Assembly: GCA_017511205.1 (NCBI GenBank)
Contig: JAFWLE010000002.1
Location: forward strand, 62,001 to 126,000
DNA length: 64,000 nucleotides
From: Candidatus Saccharimonadota bacterium
Lineage (GTDB): Bacteria > Patescibacteriota > Saccharimonadia > Saccharimonadales > Saccharimonadaceae
Reading direction: 5' to 3'
Made by a program: the position numbers and the translations under genes. The notes under the pieces were generated by a model. It saw nothing but the letters and a program-made list of their open reading frames with translations. It was not told where the DNA came from and ran no database searches. Below, piece after piece: positions 1,470 to 50,683 of the stretch (position 1 is the first letter of the stretch; the number at the start of each line of letters is the position of its first letter).

Positions 1470-3347
1470 ATGAAAAAAATAAACACAAAAACAATAGCTT
1501 TATCTGGATTAGTCGGACTAACGTGTGTTAGCGGTTTTTGGCTGTCTTCTAGCACTGTCTCCGCGGATGATGTCGTGGATAATATCACGATTAAGGTTCC
1601 AATTGCTTGTACTATGGCTGGTAGCGGAATGAATTCTCACATTACTTCTATCACGAATGGCTCTTATCGACCGAATATTGGTTCTACTACCATCAAAGTG
1701 ATGTGCAATGATGCAAGTGGTTTTTCGATATACGCTACTGGTTATACTAATGGAACTGTTGGTGCGGATATCAGCAATAAGCTCCAAGGTACAGCAGCTT
1801 CAGACAATGACACGATTGTCACTGGTCTCGCAACTAGCGCCGGAGACCCAGACGTTTCCAACTGGGCCATGAAACTGACGGCTGCGAGTGGTGCTAATGT
1901 TAATTTCCCACTTACCATCATTAGTGATGCGGAAGGAAGCTTTTCGAATTATCATACTGTACCAAGCGATTACGCCAAAGTTGCCACTAGACTAGCTGGC
2001 ACTGACGTCGGCACAAATGCCGAAGGTTCTACTTTAACTACCACTTACGCTGCCTACATTAGTCAAGCCCAAATAGCCGATACTTATAGTGGTACCGTTA
2101 AATATGTACTCGTTCATCCAAACGACAGAAATGTCCCAGGAAAAACACAAATAACACCTGCCGGAAAAATCGGTTATTATCCCAATGCATTTGGCGTAGA
2201 AGATACAATGGCAGATCAAGAGCTAACCAATCTAGATAAAAAGGACTGGAGTTCTTGCGCTTATTCTACTGATTATGAAACCAGTTGCGTTCTATATCCT
2301 TCTCCAGATGGCGAAAAAGGCATTGATTACATCAACAACTTACCAGAGTTAGACCATTACGAAACGACTTTATGGGCCTCCAATTTTCGCCGTGAAGGGT
2401 ATGGTTTTGCTGGCTGGAATACCGAGCCAGATTATAGTGGTACTAGCTATGGGCCTAACGAGCGTATTTCCTTGCCAGAAAGCGTGGCCACGGAACAAGG
2501 CTTATCTCTTTATGCTATGTGGGTAGAATCTTCTGGCTCGATGCAGGATTTTACTCAAGCACAGTGCAGTAATATGCCAGTCAATCAAGTTGTCGCCTTG
2601 ACCGACAACCGAGACAATAATACCTATGCCATAGCCAAACTGCCTGATAATAAATGCTGGATGATTGAAAACTTAAGGCTAGCTAACGAAAGTACCATTA
2701 GCGGAACTACAAGCCCAGTAACACTAAGTACTACAAACACCAATAATCCTTCATTACCACTAGAGAACTTCGGTGGTACTACTTCTAATTCCCTTTCAGC
2801 TTCAGCCACTCCATCCGCTTGGTGCGATAGTAATAGCTTTGATTGTGTCGACCAATCCATGCTAAATACGGAGAATATCACTAACGACGACATTATGACA
2901 ACACCAAAAAGTAAAGTTTATTCCTATGGTAATTATTATAATTGGTATTCCGCTACAGCCGGAAACGGAGTTTATAATACTTCCTCCAACACTAGTGTAG
3001 ACGGCAGTATTTGCCCGAAAAACTGGCGGATGTCTTCTGGCCCGAACGGTGGCGACTACGATGAATTACGTATCGCACTTGGCATCAATCAAGATCCTAC
3101 ATTTTATATTTATAAGTCAGATAAGTTTTGGCAATACCCTATCAACTACGTTAATTCTGGCACCATTTCAAGCGGCCAATTTAATTACAAGGATTCGTTC
3201 TATTGGACGGAAACTTCAGGTACAGTTTATATGGAGTACCGTCTCGCATCTGTTTTGTCACTCTCTAGTTCTGTTCTCTCGACTGGATCTCAAACTACAA
3301 AATACGTTGGTGCCACGGTTAGATGTATTGCCGCCCCGTCGAATTAA
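1470..3347 (+). CDS. Secreted FISUMP-domain surface protein
   Basis: A 625-residue exported protein of unknown function. Residues 1-32 form a signal peptide (MKKINTKTIALSGLVGLTCVSGFWLSS...VSA). The region to about 230 is Thr/Ser-rich and beta-like. Residues about 290-350 match a Listeria-Bacteroides (InlB-type) repeat with GYGFAGWNTEPDYSGTSY...LYAMW. The C-terminal third (MQDFTQAQCSNMP ... DNRDNNTYAIAKLPDNKCWMIENLRL ... NWRMSSG ... GATVRCI) is a FISUMP-type domain, which is related to the C-type-lectin-like fold. The layout matches the larger protein at 46013. Unlike that one, its C-terminus has no GC-rich diversified segment. No sorting signal or terminal membrane anchor is visible. It is probably a host-contact or adhesin protein, by inference. 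Confidence 0.72.
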   Translation: MKKINTKTIALSGLVGLTCVSGFWLSSSTVSADDVVDNITIKVPIACTMAGSGMNSHITSITNGSYRPNIGSTTIKVMCNDASGFSIYATGYTNGTVGADISNKLQGTAASDNDTIVTGLATSAGDPDVSNWAMKLTAASGANVNFPLTIISDAEGSFSNYHTVPSDYAKVATRLAGTDVGTNAEGSTLTTTYAAYISQAQIADTYSGTVKYVLVHPNDRNVPGKTQITPAGKIGYYPNAFGVEDTMADQELTNLDKKDWSSCAYSTDYETSCVLYPSPDGEKGIDYINNLPELDHYETTLWASNFRREGYGFAGWNTEPDYSGTSYGPNERISLPESVATEQGLSLYAMWVESSGSMQDFTQAQCSNMPVNQVVALTDNRDNNTYAIAKLPDNKCWMIENLRLANESTISGTTSPVTLSTTNTNNPSLPLENFGGTTSNSLSASATPSAWCDSNSFDCVDQSMLNTENITNDDIMTTPKSKVYSYGNYYNWYSATAGNGVYNTSSNTSVDGSICPKNWRMSSGPNGGDYDELRIALGINQDPTFYIYKSDKFWQYPINYVNSGTISSGQFNYKDSFYWTETSGTVYMEYRLASVLSLSSSVLSTGSQTTKYVGATVRCIAAPSN

Positions 3348-36885: not shown

Positions 36886-38357
36886 TATGCCAGCTCCTTT
36901 GCAAATTCTATCAAGCTTTTATCGCTTCGCCTCGGTCCAATTAATTGTAAGCCAATTGCTAGACCCTCCTTGGACTTCCCTACCGGTATAGTTAAACCTG
37001 GTATGCCAGCTAGATTTAGGGGCACACTCATCACATCCTCTAGATACATAGAAACTGGATCATTTACCTTTTCACCTAGTTTAAATGCCAAATTTGGTGA
37101 CACCGGTGTGAGAATAAAATCGCACTTAGAAAAAGCCTTTTTGTACTCTTCAATAATTAGTGTACGGGCTTTGGCAGCCTTCAAAAAGTATGCATCATAG
37201 AATCCCGACGAAAGCACAAAATTGCCAATCATAATACGGCGTTTATTCTCCGGCATAAAACCTTCATCCCGTGTATTAGCATACAAAGCTTCTAGATCCT
37301 TAGAATTTTCAGAACGAAAACCATAGCGCACCCCATCGTAGCGTGACAAATTCGAAGCAATTTCTGCTGGCACAATAATATAATAGGCAGCCAAAGCATA
37401 TTTCAGATTCGGCATTGAAAGCTCCACAATTTCATGTCCATTTTTCTTAAGCTCATCACATTTTTTCTTTAGCGCCTGTCGAATTTCCGGATCGACTGAC
37501 TCATTGTCAAAATCCTTTATAATCCCTATGCGAGCCGAGCGCAAGTTCACTTGGGGATCTCCGCAGGTCACGACCGAGGTAGAAGCGGCGCGCCCCCCGT
37601 GACGACGGGCGGGCGCGACCGCGTGCCCCAAGGGGACTTGCGCCGGCTCGCCAGCGTTATTATAGTAATCTGGCAATGTCGTCAGATCTTTAGGATCTTG
37701 CCCGGAGGCGATAGACATTAGAAGATCCATGTCTTCCGGTGTTTTTGTGAAAAACCCAATACAATCAGTGGAGGAGGCCATCGCTACCACGCCATAGCGT
37801 GAAATCGTCCCAAAGGTCGGTTTAAAACCATATACGCCATTGAACGAAGCTGGCTGTCTGATTGAACCGCCTGTGTCTGTGCCAGTTGCAAACTCTACAA
37901 TATCTAGCGCTACGGCCACCGCTGAACCACCAGACGAACCGCCCGCAACACGTTCTTTGTCGCAAGCGTTCGATGTTGGGCCAAAATATGAATTTTCCGT
38001 CGAAGAACCATGCGCAAAAGCATCCATATTAGTGCGCCCAATCATAATAGCACCTTCATCTTCTAGTTTCTTTACTGCCGTAGCTGTCACTGGCGAATTA
38101 AAACCTTGTAAAATATGTGCCGAAGCAGTAGTTTCACCCTCTGGGCTTAAGAAATTATCCTTTAATACATACGGTACGCCAGCTAGACGCCCTACTTTTT
38201 CACCTTTTTTAATCTTTGCGTCAATTTCACGCGCTTTTTTTAAAGCACCCTCCTCGTTTAGATAAGTAAAAATATGATAATCGGCAAAGAATTTAGCTTT
38301 TTCTAAAGCATCTTTTACTAGTCTTTCAGCAGAAACAGTTTTATTCGCAGTTTTCAT
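36885..38357 (-). CDS. gatA: Glutamyl-tRNA amidotransferase subunit A with an inserted palindromic element
   Basis: The 490-residue amidase subunit of GatCAB, releasing ammonia from glutamine. The catalytic Lys is in GVPYVLKDNFL, with the Ser residues in GGSSGGSAVAVALDIVEFATGTDTGGSIRQPASFNGVYGFKPTFG (Ser-cis-Ser-Lys amidase signature). Between about residues 233 and 275 lies an extra segment (GEPAQVPLGHAVAPARRHGG...TSVVTCGDPQVNL) absent from ordinary GatA, encoded by a GC-rich palindrome and also found in UvrB of this window. It keeps the frame open and falls in a surface loop before RIGIIKDF. The gene lies two bases after gatC. Confidence 0.95.
   Translation of the reverse strand: MKTANKTVSAERLVKDALEKAKFFADYHIFTYLNEEGALKKAREIDAKIKKGEKVGRLAGVPYVLKDNFLSPEGETTASAHILQGFNSPVTATAVKKLEDEGAIMIGRTNMDAFAHGSSTENSYFGPTSNACDKERVAGGSSGGSAVAVALDIVEFATGTDTGGSIRQPASFNGVYGFKPTFGTISRYGVVAMASSTDCIGFFTKTPEDMDLLMSIASGQDPKDLTTLPDYYNNAGEPAQVPLGHAVAPARRHGGRAASTSVVTCGDPQVNLRSARIGIIKDFDNESVDPEIRQALKKKCDELKKNGHEIVELSMPNLKYALAAYYIIVPAEIASNLSRYDGVRYGFRSENSKDLEALYANTRDEGFMPENKRRIMIGNFVLSSGFYDAYFLKAAKARTLIIEEYKKAFSKCDFILTPVSPNLAFKLGEKVNDPVSMYLEDVMSVPLNLAGIPGLTIPVGKSKEGLAIGLQLIGPRRSDKSLIEFAKELA
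37530..37652. repeat. In-frame palindromic element, copy in gatA
   Basis: About 123 bp, much richer in GC than the gene. The outer arms (GCGAGCCGAGCGCAAG.. at 37530 and ..CTTGCGCCGGCTCGC ending 37652) are complementary. The 74-bp core (37555-37628) aligns without gaps with the core at 50088-50161 in uvrB, with ten differences, eight of which form four compensated base pairs. The inverted arm lies next to host gatA codons, as if made by a fold-back copy of the target. Confidence 0.85.
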
Positions 38358-46012: not shown

Positions 46013-48346
46013 ATGAAGACAAAAATTCTAACACTAATCGTATCTATATTCATTGCAGCGTTATTTGGCTCTTCTGTTTCTGCTTCCTCTGGCACTCTTA
46101 TAGTTTCTATTCCAGATAACATTTCACTAAACATCCTCCCTACAGGTTCCGGTTCTTTTGCCTCTACTTCAGCCACAGTCAGTGTCAAGACTACTTATGC
46201 TGCAGGATATACTCTAGGTATTAAAGCAAGTAACAATAATAGTAATGCTCTAATTAATGATAACGATTCTTCTAAGACAATTCCATCCATCACTAGTAAC
46301 GTTTCTGAAGCTACTTTCTCATCGTCTAGCGCCTACAACAATAAATGGGGTTTTAAACCATCTAAACTAAACTCAGCCGCTAATTCTGATTATCTTCCAG
46401 CTCCTAGTTCAGATTCAGTCGTCACAGTGTTAGATCAAACCGCCACTTCAAATCCCTCTTCTTTCAACGACTACACTTTAACTATGGGAGTAAGGACAGA
46501 TAGTACTTTAACTCCAGGCTCTTATAGAAACGTATTTGTTTTAACAGCAGTAGCTAATCCTACACCATATGATATTAACTATTTAGAAAACACCACTGAT
46601 ACTGTTACTAATATGCCTAGTGACACATCTTCTTCTACTTATGATGCTTCCGTGAATATCTCTTCAACTGTTCCAGCAAGAGATGGCTACAACTTTAAAG
46701 GGTGGTGCACGGCACAAGTTGCTGATGATGCCACTTGTTCTGGTACCACTTATAATCCAAATGGTGGAGGCACAGATCTTACTTGGACGATTGATCAAAC
46801 TGCAGCTTCTAATTCTTTGACGCTTTATGCAATGTGGGAGAGCGACGTAATTATTATGCAAACTATGAGCGAGTCAGATTGCATTACGTCACAACCTACA
46901 TCTGTGGTAGATATTCGTGACAACGAAACATATTTAGTTCAGCGTCTTGCTGACGGAAATTGCTGGCTACTAGATAATTTAAGGCTTGATCCTACTGCTG
47001 TTTCTTTGACTGACCTTCAAGGCAATACTAATGCTTCAAACCAAACTCTTACTTACTTCAAGAATGGTGGTGGCTCTAGTCCATACACTAACGTAGGAGT
47101 TAATACTACTTGGGCTAGTACTTCTGATAATAAATATGATGAGCCAAAAGTAGTGACTACTTATAAAGACACTACTACTACAAGTTATGGTGCTGGTTCT
47201 AGCAAGATTGGTGTCTACTATAACTATTGCGCTGCTTCTGCTGGTTCATATTGTTATTCATCAGATAGTGGTACTGGAAATGCTACAGAAGACCTTTGTC
47301 CTGCTGGTTGGAGAATGCCTACTGGTGGGGCTAGTGGTGAATATCAGGCTCTATATACAGCCTATTCTTCTGATGTTACTAACTTTAAAAATGCTCTTTC
47401 TACTCCTCTGTCGGGCATCTTCGGCGGTGGCTCGGCGAACGGTCAGGGCACGTACGGCTTCTTCTGGTCTTCTACCAGGGGCGGTGACGACTTCATGTAT
47501 GGCCTCTACGTGACTTCTAGCACTGTCGACCCCACGAACGGCAGCAATCGCAACCTCGGAGACTCGGTGAGATGCGTGAAGAAAACCCCATATATGCAAG
47601 ATGTGACTGATATGGATCTAGAGGAGATGATTCCAGATCCTGGAGATACTGTCACTCTTGCTGACAAACGTGACAATACCAAATATTTAGTTGGTAGGCT
47701 TGCCGATGGAAATGTCTGGATGTTAGACAATCTAGCTTTAGATCCAACTTCTGTTTCGCTCGCTACTCTTCAAGGTAATACTAATGCGTCTAATCAAACT
47801 CTCACTTACTTAAAGAATGGTGGTGGCTCTAGCCCATATCCAGCTAATGGAGTTAATACTACTTGGGCTAGTTCATCTGACAATAAACACAATGAGCCAA
47901 AAGTAGTAACTACCTATAAAGACACTACTACTACAAGCTATGGTGCTGGTTCTGGCAAGATTGGTGTCTATTATAACTATTGTGCCGCATCGGCAGGATC
48001 ATATTGCTATGCATCAAGTAGCAGTACTGGAAATGCCACAGAAGACCTTTGCCCGGCTGGCTGGAGAATGCCTACTGGCGGTTCTAGTGGAGAATACGAG
48101 GCTCTATATACAGCCTATAATTCTGATGTTGCTGCCTTTGAGCAAGCTCTTTCTACTCCTCTGTCGGGCTACTTCGTCGGTGGCTCGGCGTACGGTCAGG
48201 GCACGTACTACGGCTACTTCTGGTCTTCTACTAGGCGCAATAACGGCAGTATGTATAACCTCTACGTGGATTCGAGCAGTGTCGACCCCGCGAGCAACAG
48301 CAGTCGCGTCTTCGGCGTCTCTATGAGATGCCTACTAGATTCCTAG
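46013..48346 (+). CDS. Surface protein with two FISUMP domains and diversified C-termini
   Basis: A 777-residue exported protein with signal peptide MKTKILTLIVSIFIAALFGSSVSAS. Residues about 25-190 are a Ser/Thr-rich beta region; about 200-280 an InlB-like repeat (GYNFKGWCTAQ ... LTLYAMW); then two FISUMP-type domains in tandem (about 285-525 and 530-777), each with DNxTYLVxRLADGNxWxLDNL and LCPAGWRMPTGG. Each domain ends in a GC-rich segment (FWSSTR...VRC/MRC) that differs strongly between copies while flanks are nearly identical. This is the pattern of a retroelement-diversified ligand-binding surface. No sorting motif is seen. It is probably an adhesin or host-recognition protein. Confidence 0.78.
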   Translation: MKTKILTLIVSIFIAALFGSSVSASSGTLIVSIPDNISLNILPTGSGSFASTSATVSVKTTYAAGYTLGIKASNNNSNALINDNDSSKTIPSITSNVSEATFSSSSAYNNKWGFKPSKLNSAANSDYLPAPSSDSVVTVLDQTATSNPSSFNDYTLTMGVRTDSTLTPGSYRNVFVLTAVANPTPYDINYLENTTDTVTNMPSDTSSSTYDASVNISSTVPARDGYNFKGWCTAQVADDATCSGTTYNPNGGGTDLTWTIDQTAASNSLTLYAMWESDVIIMQTMSESDCITSQPTSVVDIRDNETYLVQRLADGNCWLLDNLRLDPTAVSLTDLQGNTNASNQTLTYFKNGGGSSPYTNVGVNTTWASTSDNKYDEPKVVTTYKDTTTTSYGAGSSKIGVYYNYCAASAGSYCYSSDSGTGNATEDLCPAGWRMPTGGASGEYQALYTAYSSDVTNFKNALSTPLSGIFGGGSANGQGTYGFFWSSTRGGDDFMYGLYVTSSTVDPTNGSNRNLGDSVRCVKKTPYMQDVTDMDLEEMIPDPGDTVTLADKRDNTKYLVGRLADGNVWMLDNLALDPTSVSLATLQGNTNASNQTLTYLKNGGGSSPYPANGVNTTWASSSDNKHNEPKVVTTYKDTTTTSYGAGSGKIGVYYNYCAASAGSYCYASSSSTGNATEDLCPAGWRMPTGGSSGEYEALYTAYNSDVAAFEQALSTPLSGYFVGGSAYGQGTYYGYFWSSTRRNNGSMYNLYVDSSSVDPASNSSRVFGVSMRCLLDS
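47010..48110 (+). repeat. Duplicated FISUMP domain at DNA level
   Basis: The stretch from about 47010 (LQGNTNASNQTLTYFKNGGGSSPY...) recurs from about 47770 with high identity, including a long Tyr/Ser/Thr-rich run, showing a recent tandem duplication of the domain. Confidence 0.8.
47401..47578 (+). other. Candidate DGR variable region VR1
   Basis: A GC-rich 178-bp segment ending each FISUMP domain copy 1. Compared codon by codon with 48151-48331, most replacements alter only the first or second base and keep a final C or T (for example ATC/TAC, AAC/TAC, TTC/TAC, GAC/AAC, GGC/AAC, AAC/GTC), as expected when AAC codons of a template repeat are mutated at adenines. Confidence 0.65.
48151..48331 (+). 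other. Candidate DGR variable region VR2
   Basis: The matching segment at the end of domain copy 2, starting at the same CTCTGTCGGGC and ending at AGATGC, with one extra TAC codon relative to VR1. No reverse transcriptase or template repeat was found in the window. Confidence 0.65.
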
Positions 48347-48563
48347 TTTTGCCTTTTAAGTTCCTTGTCTGCCGTAAAAATTGGAAAGTTTAAGCGACTA
48401 CGTTCTATCAATAAGGTGTGTGCTTAAGTAGTCTCTAAGTTTCCTCGTTCTCCAATTCAGGAAAAAGCAGAAAAGTATAGAAAGATATATAATATATAGT
48501 GAATTTGATACGCCATATCTGGTGTATCGTATCTAGCATACTACGCTAGAACTAGCGTTTTTA
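48347..48563 (+). other. Structured 3' region and terminator of the surface gene
   Basis: A 237-bp gap to uvrB. From 48390 to 48462 nested arms (ATTGG..CCAAT, GGAAA..TTTCC, GACTAC..GTAGTC) can form a long interrupted hairpin. GATACGCCA/TGGTGTATC (about 48508-48529) is another. CGCTAG-AA-CTAGCG followed by TTTTT at 48544-48563 is a plausible terminator. It may be a long 3' UTR or an independent small RNA. Confidence 0.4.
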
Positions 48564-48583: not shown

Positions 48584-50683
48584 CTATCTTTTCTTTCCTT
48601 CCATAAAATCTTTGATTCGCGTAATTTCATCTCGCAGCATTGCGGCCTTTTCGAATTCCAAATTCGCAGCGGCGAGTTGCATTTCGGAAGAGAGTTGTTT
48701 AATAAGCGCTGGTAGTTCATCTTTTGGTACGCGTTTGATATCAAATTTATTCTCTTTCTCTTTCTCCGGGATAATCGCTCTAAGCCCTGCCGAGACCTCC
48801 TTTTTGATAGAGTGTGGCGTGATATGGTGCTTGGCATTATATTCTTTCTGAATTTCACGTCGTCGGTTGGTCTCAGAAATTGCTTTTTCCATACTCTCGG
48901 TAATAAAATCGGCATACATAATAACTTTGCCTTCTTCGTGACGCGCTGCCCGGCCAATCGTTTGGATTAAGGCTGATTCTGAACGCAAAAACCCTTCTTT
49001 ATCGGCATCAAGAATCGCAACTAAAGATACCTCCGGCAGGTCCAACCCCTCGCGCAGTAAATTAATACCGACTAAAACGTCATAAACTCCAGCCCGTAGA
49101 TCACGAATAATGTCGCCTCGTTCCAAAGTATCCACATCTGAATGGATATAGGCAGTCTTTACGCCTCTCTCCTTCAAATGATCGGTCAAATCTTCCGCCA
49201 TACGTTTAGTAAGCGTCGTGATAAGCGTTCGCTGCCCTTTAGCGATGCGTTTGTCGATTTCTTCCATTAGATCGTCAATCTGCCCTTCTGAACCACGTAC
49301 TTCAATTTCCGGGTCGAGCAAACCCGTTGGACGAATCACTTGCTCAGCTGGTTCCGGTGAAACTTCCAGCTCGTAGTCCCCCGGCGTAGCCGATACATAA
49401 ATCGCCTGATTGATGTGTTTTTGGAATTCACCATAGGTTAGCGGTCGGTTATCAAGCGCACTCGGTAGCCTAAAACCATAGTCTACCAGGGCCAATTTCC
49501 TCGCATGGTCACCATTATACATGCCTCTTACCTGCGGTAAAGTCATGTGTGATTCATCTACGATCAAAAGAAAATCTTTCGGGAAGAAATCTAAAAGCGT
49601 ATATGGTGGCTCACCGGGTTTTCTACCCTCTAGATGCCTGGAATAGTTTTCAATTCCTTTAACAAATCCAGTTTCCTTCAACATTTCTAAATCATACTTA
49701 GTGCGCTGTGATAATCTTTGCGCCTCCAGGAACTTGTCATGTTTCTCAAAATATTTTAGCCGATCTTCATATTCCGCTCGAATGGTAATCAAGGCTTTTT
49801 CCAGCTGATCCATCGGTGTAGCATAATGAGTATTTGGAAAGATGTGTACATGATCTGGTTTTTCACGTACGTCTAGTGTAATTGGGTCAACAATCTTTAC
49901 ATCTTCTAACGTATCGAACCCAAATTCGAACCGATAAGCGTACTCGCCATTAGCTGGGAATAAATCGATCGTGTCACCCATCACGCGGAAATTACCACGC
50001 TCAAAGGCGATGTCATTCCTATGATACTGCATATCAACTAACCGCCGGATAAACTCAAGCTGAGAAATTGGCGTTAGGGAGCTTGAGGGATCTCCGGAGG
50101 TTACGACCGAGGTAGAAGACGCGCCGCCCCCGTGACGACGGGCGGCGGCGACGTCGTGCCCGAAAGCCCCTAACGCCAATTTCCAGCTACCTTCGGTTTT
50201 CCAAATCGGTAGTGACATTTCGGTATAATGCTCTGGCGAGCCAATGCCATAAATACACGATACTGATGCCACAACGATGCAATCTCGCCGAGTTAAGAGC
50301 GCCTCGGTAGCACCGTGCCTTAGGCGATCGATTTCGTCGTTGATTGCTGAGTCCTTTTCGATATAAGTATCTGTAGAAGCAATGTAGGCTTCTGGCTGGT
50401 AGTAATCAAAGTAGGAGACAAAATAATGCACCTCGTTTTCGGGAAAGAACTCACGAAATTCCGAATATAGCTGAGCAGCTAGAGTTTTGTTATGCGCTAG
50501 AATTAAAGTTGGTCTTTGGGTTTTTTCGATAATATTGGCCATAGTAAAAGTTTTACCGGAGCCTGTGACACCTAGCAGAGTTTGTTCATGCACTCCACGA
50601 TTAATCCCGTCTACGAGTTTGTTGATCGCAGCGGGCTGGTCACCAGTCGGTTTGTACTTAGACACCAGTTTAAACTTAGCCAT
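48584..50683 (-). CDS. uvrB: Excinuclease ABC subunit B with an inserted palindromic element
   Basis: About 699 residues; the DNA helicase-like damage verifier of nucleotide excision repair. It has Walker [16 protein letters not shown], the beta-hairpin region [86 protein letters not shown] and a C-terminal UVR motif ([27 protein letters not shown]). Between about residues 167 and 207 an extra segment ([32 protein letters not shown]) interrupts the otherwise conserved stretch leading to [19 protein letters not shown]; a related insert is in GatA. The start at 50683 is set by homology; the -10 at 50691-50696 leaves a leader of 0-1 nt. Confidence 0.96.
50064..50183. repeat. In-frame palindromic element, copy in uvrB
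   Basis: About 120 bp. The outer arms (GAAATTGGCGTTAGGG at 50064 and CCCTAACGCCAATTTC ending 50183) are complementary but unrelated to the arms of the gatA copy. The 74-bp core (50088-50161) aligns with gatA 37555-37628 without gaps. Confidence 0.85.

Follow-up and report, generated by a model that had tools for sequence, protein, structure and literature searches.

Two variable regions in one FISUMP gene

The GC-rich patches that end two tandem FISUMP domains of a predicted secreted protein from a gut Saccharibacterium are almost certainly variable regions (VRs) of a diversity-generating retroelement (DGR), and the gene carrying them is a remote target of a second DGR type that is lost, strain-variable or unassembled in this genome. 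We analyzed a window of 64,000 nucleotides (contig C9, positions 62001-126000) from a Candidatus Saccharimonadota assembly (G000; 796 kb in 12 contigs, 97.5% complete), in which the gene occupies positions 46013-48346 of the plus strand, as delimited by its ORF, its PF09603/TIGR02145 matches and a full-length orthologue with 80% identity on contig C18 of a second genome, G086. The 777-aa product begins with a signal-like segment followed by two FISUMP (Fib_succ_major) domains, both supported by profile matches that pass the curated cut-offs (PF09603, E=1e-12, 49.1 bits against a cut-off of 33.9; TIGR02145, E=1e-14, 55.7 bits against 41.65). Its neighbors, named by inspecting translations, are a phosphoketolase-like ORF pair on one side and uvrB on the other. 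The window contains a further FISUMP gene (about 625 aa, positions 1470-3347), whose C-terminal end has no DNA-level alignment to the VR family described below.

The original prediction of two DGR variable regions in this one protein was borne out by alignment to real template repeats (TRs) and to six paralogous VRs, with boundaries refined to 47396-47578 for VR1, which is internal and ends domain 1, and 48149-48340 for VR2, which is C-terminal and ends domain 2 (both on the plus strand). The GC-richness that had been noted is also confirmed (0.60 in VR1 versus 0.39 in the 300 bp before it, and 0.55 in VR2 versus 0.44 in the corresponding 300 bp), and VR2 is longer than VR1 by one codon (TAC). 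The conserved parts upstream of the VRs (46871-47395 in domain 1 and 47600-48148 in domain 2, plus strand) had been described as nearly identical next to strongly diverged ends: the divergence of the ends stands, but the similarity of the flanks was overstated, being about 86.5% identity, or 42 differences in 312 nt. As noted, differences between the VRs fall at codon positions 1 and 2 (13/14/5 at positions 1/2/3 in two ungapped blocks), whereas those between the flanks are mainly third-position changes (14/3/25 over the 312 nt); third positions differ at 5/56 sites in the VRs versus 25/104 in the flanks. That the VR backbones are closer than their flanks is expected if one TR was copied into both after domain duplication.

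Directly 3' of VR2 lies a conserved segment (48335-48373, plus strand, ending ...TAGTTTTGCCTTTTAAGTTCCTTGTCTGCC) common to the copy at C4:58155 and to two VR copies in G086; similarity stops past these roughly 40 bp, and the segment is possibly part of a homing or recombination unit.

An AlphaFold model of domain 2 (47600-48343) reached a mean pLDDT of 95.6, and the VR would make up its final strands. Foldseek alone found no significant PDB match to this model, and VIA-align returned matches that were mostly C-type-lectin-like, with Z-scores of 4-7 and every one below 8. These middling matches include the Lcl C-terminal domain (Z 7.2), snaclec, CEL-IV, LOX-1 and Dectin-1. The C-type-lectin-like model agrees with the known targets of DGRs and is not proof by itself.

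A predicted template is found beside reverse transcriptases of congeners

DNA and protein searches recovered four further VRs in the same genome (C4:58183, C4:109724, C4:124640 and C6:29213), each within a coding frame, so that the family has at least six members on three contigs, in addition to about ten more distant FISUMP domains. In a codon alignment of the six, variable columns read NNC or NNT within an invariant frame, and the sequences separate into two subgroups, implying a pair of related templates. From these VRs we wrote a predicted template in which the variable codons were AAC or AAT, and this served as the query against 174 congeners. The best matches, which score above all VRs of the source genome, include G051:C7:24857-25041 and G004:C15:54357-54541. 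Both lie within about 160 bp of DGR reverse transcriptases (RTs) that had been located independently, and both run LSTPLSGNFNNGSANNQGSNGNFWSST..., with Asn codons where the prediction had placed them. The G051 TR has A at 53/59 predicted A sites and a base other than A at 106/109 remaining sites, a likeness that is in part built in, since the TR was retrieved with the predicted template; its proximity to an RT is independent of that search.

Against the G051 TR, VR1 and VR2 differ from each other at 25/56 A sites and only 7/112 others (odds ratio 12, p=8e-9), and the placement of 25 of the 32 differences on A sites, which make up 56 of the 168 sites, was reached in 0/200,000 permutations. The bias holds at codon positions 1 and 2 alone (24/53 A sites versus 3/59 others, p=4.5e-7) and with the G004 TR as reference (26/55 versus 6/113), and all six VRs are adenine-biased relative to the G051 TR (odds ratios 3.4-6.5). 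The adenine-directed mutation that had been proposed is thus corroborated by real TRs from congeners, as it is by the VR copies of another species considered below. The G051 TR itself did not template the window VRs, which depart from it at 18-19 of the 112 non-A sites in a comparison that draws on TRs from congeners only.

One non-coding match in the genome, at C9:61145, was rejected as a TR: it lacks AAC runs and is a fragment of a decayed gene. This short decayed VR-type FISUMP end (C9:61145-61269) follows immediately on a surface-protein gene, a little to the left of the window. At C7:47162-50419, a 3707-aa open frame has at least three FISUMP domains, the ends of which resemble AT-rich decayed VRs.

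Sister copies diversified recently

Comparison with G086 shows the same pattern between species. VR1 and its orthologue differ at 18/11/6 sites at codon positions 1/2/3 (56 codons), versus 12/10/35 in the upstream domain (179 codons). Between one copy on contig C4 (C4_58) and the copies on contigs C24 and C13 of G086, the upstream flanks differ at 0-1 of 128 sites and the VRs at 27-32 sites, of which 23-28 are adenines in the TR and 0-1 are third-position changes. Near-zero flank divergence together with so many VR differences indicates that the diversifier was active very recently. Similarity between the VR copies of the two genomes ends sharply 41 bp after the VR, suggesting that domain-VR units move by recombination. 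The two G086 contigs share their first 141 bases (C24:1-141 and C13:1-141) and part where the VR begins, the kind of break expected of an assembler when identical domains lead into different VRs.

The only RT in the assembly belongs to a different DGR

A DGR is present on contig C7 of the same genome. Its RT (P0001; C7:15974-17104, minus strand, RVT_1 match) carries the DGR-type motif 4 IGNLTSQ and YVDD, matches PF00078 (E=3e-12), and also matches PDB 8ub7 (E=9e-27), which we take to be a Bordetella phage BPP-1 structure. Relatives of this RT come from Candidatus Saccharibacteria in ruminant and other metagenomes, the closest (77%) being from a goat jejunum MAG. The TR (C7:15682-15915) adjoins the RT, with which it is convergent; next to the RT is an Avd-like ORF of 290 aa (C7:17128-18000), whose match to NCBIfam DivGenRetAVD (E=0.0036) falls short of the curated cut-off; and a FISUMP-type target (C7:13623-15242) and a VR (C7:15059-15292) belong to the same element. 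TR and VR differ at 36 sites, 32 of them adenines in the TR (32/58 A sites changed), and the changes at 4/176 non-A sites are mainly at the ends. With its own TR and VR, the element is working-looking.

Serine-recombinase-like ORFs and a small helix-turn-helix-like ORF, recognized by inspecting translations, occur with similar ends at C7:8810-12723 and at G004:C15:53254-54068. Standing beside two different DGR loci, such recombinase-like genes might mobilize DGR cassettes.

Targeting in trans and the missing cognate element

As originally noted, neither an RT nor a TR lies within the window, and the expectation that both would be found elsewhere in the genome was borne out in part: an RT is present on C7, whereas a search of the assembly (12 contigs, one of them masked) for a TR matching the window VRs found only coding copies, and a second RT was not found in it. 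The accompanying proposal, that the VRs are acted upon in trans, is right as a mode and is demonstrated in congeners, although the acting element itself is missing or lost here. The TR on C15 of G004 and a remote VR on its contig C17 disagree at 27/55 A sites and agree at all 111 non-A sites. For the TR on C7 of G051, a VR on contig C3 shows differences at 16/56 A sites and 3/110 others, and a cis VR at 35/56 and 1/110. On the strength of these alignments, remote targeting for this TR type occurs within the same genus.

The mechanism that we favor is that of a DGR whose TR and RT would belong to the type found in G051 and G004, recently lost, strain-variable or unassembled in the genome examined. 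The RT would miscopy adenines while reverse-transcribing the TR RNA, and the resulting cDNA would then replace the matching repeat in the target gene by retrohoming. With AAC or AAT at the variable positions of the template, changes would fall on codon positions 1 and 2, and the resulting NNC/NNT codons would never create stops. The residues rewritten in this way would be those of the C-type-lectin-like FISUMP domain, which is presumably displayed at the cell surface and may bind ligands there, and diversification may still be under way.

Within this mechanism, the VRs may be relics, their cognate DGR having been lost from the lineage so that fixed variants are now subject to ordinary mutation and recombination, a version to which we give slightly less than an even chance. 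No cognate TR or RT is found in the 97.5% complete assembly, and no RT match was found in 21 of the 85 congeners with VR-family matches, 12 of which are at least 95% complete. VR copies in the four of these RT-less genomes that were inspected (G083, G095, G092 and G006) have the same NNC/NNT layout as those in G000. Likewise, no RT was found in G086, which has the closest orthologue and is 86% complete, and VR2 of that orthologue has ceased to belong to this type. What argues against relics is the very recent activity evident from sister copies, which differ at up to 28 template-A sites next to virtually unchanged flanks, and the intact, stop-free state of the VRs.

Alternatively, and with nearly balanced prospects, the cognate DGR exists in the cell or the population but outside the assembly, in a contig gap, a masked contig or a strain-variable locus. 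The genome is split into 12 contigs; contig C8 (2633 bp) is all N; the ends of C4, C10 and C12 lie inside repetitive surface genes; five of the seven genomes carrying the nearest RT have additional DGR RTs; and in Thiohalocapsa, a TR-less locus is intact in some structural variants (PMC10907252). However, assembly completeness is high and no contig end matches an RT or TR: contig ends were therefore rejected as broken DGR loci, the only match being a surface protein at the left end of C4. A search of IMG/VR for viral contigs as TR carriers yielded no exact match to two 20-21-base probes.

Diversification of the window gene in trans by the C7 DGR is improbable. Although C7 encodes the sole DGR RT of the genome, and the two systems are similar in fold and VR codon layout, its TR was rejected at the DNA level because it fails to align with the window VRs; identity between the two classes of TR is only 72% over about 112 bases, and the RT would need a second TR, of which the assembly contains none. 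Ordinary positive selection or paralogue recombination without any DGR is barely credible, since for all that FISUMP genes form a large paralogous family with visible domain shuffling between species, selection would neither freeze third positions (0-1 of 27-32 changes) nor limit change to template-A sites, and this reading does not predict a template that is later found beside an RT.

Relation to known systems

The mutation machinery is of a known kind, and remote and orphan targets have precedents. In Treponema denticola, remote and orphan targets are left from a lost DGR type (PMC4891356). There, in isolates such as SP32 and al-2, several remote target genes have C-type-lectin-fold domains, as is probable here; in both cases a genome with one DGR type has retained a VR that belongs to another, and adenine-biased VRs persist in T. 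denticola isolates without RT and TR (PMC4891356). The target domain there is FGE-sulfatase-like, unlike the FISUMP domains of the present Saccharibacteria protein, which has two VRs. Thiohalocapsa PB-PSB1 likewise has targets whose tandem CLec domains carry several VRs, as well as diversification in trans and degenerate loci lacking a TR or RT, but its targets belong to conflict systems in a large genome with transposons (PMC10907252), whereas ours are predicted secreted FISUMP proteins in a reduced genome. The DGR of Bordetella phage BPP-1 (RT/Avd/TR/VR) is alike in RT homology, adenine-specific VR change and a CLec-type target (probable in the present case), and differs in acting in cis on one VR, as opposed to remote VRs, two of them in one gene. 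CPR (Patescibacteria) have their own cell-encoded DGR clade (clade-2), with targets whose domains are poorly recognized (PMC8144416), as in the present case; that survey covered only the 1 kb around each RT and states that remote targets would be missed, as would targets such as the window VRs. Among the papers covered by our literature search, none joins DGRs and FISUMP.

DGR targets can thus be recognized in a genome that lacks the template, by using paralogous VRs to rebuild it and then locating it in relatives. RT-neighborhood surveys are suggested to undercount targets, given that in this genome alone at least six family VRs are remote from any cognate RT. Saccharibacteria are believed to live attached to other bacteria, and the findings point to a large hypervariable lectin repertoire, which could plausibly serve to recognize partners or to escape phages. 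More speculatively, and on balance somewhat doubtfully, VR-bearing lectin domains of gut Saccharibacteria may circulate from locus to locus and from species to species as modular cassettes, each made up of a domain, its VR and about 40 bp of downstream sequence, while the RT/TR machinery comes and goes. Orphan genomes may then keep a standing repertoire, including two VRs in one protein, open to reactivation by any DGR that arrives with a compatible TR.

A GC-rich element in housekeeping genes

Apart from the VRs, a GC-rich element of about 85 bp occurs in frame in housekeeping genes, with about 13 good copies in the genome. Two sites are in the window (approximately 50070-50165 in uvrB and 37548-37636 in gatA), and further ones are at C4:45361 (pheT), C10:9758 (a uvrD/pcrA-like helicase gene) and C9:155168 (alaS). 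A search of the window gave no Rfam match to the element, which is present in 36 of 118 congeners and absent from the pcrA orthologue of G042. Is it a palindromic mobile element, or an insert that is removed or bypassed at the RNA level? Its predicted fold is a strong three-way-junction RNA, and the host bases on its two sides are inverted repeats of each other, roughly 10-20 bp long and specific to each gene; in uvrB the pair reads GAAATTGGCGTTAGGG / CCCTAACGCCAATTTC.
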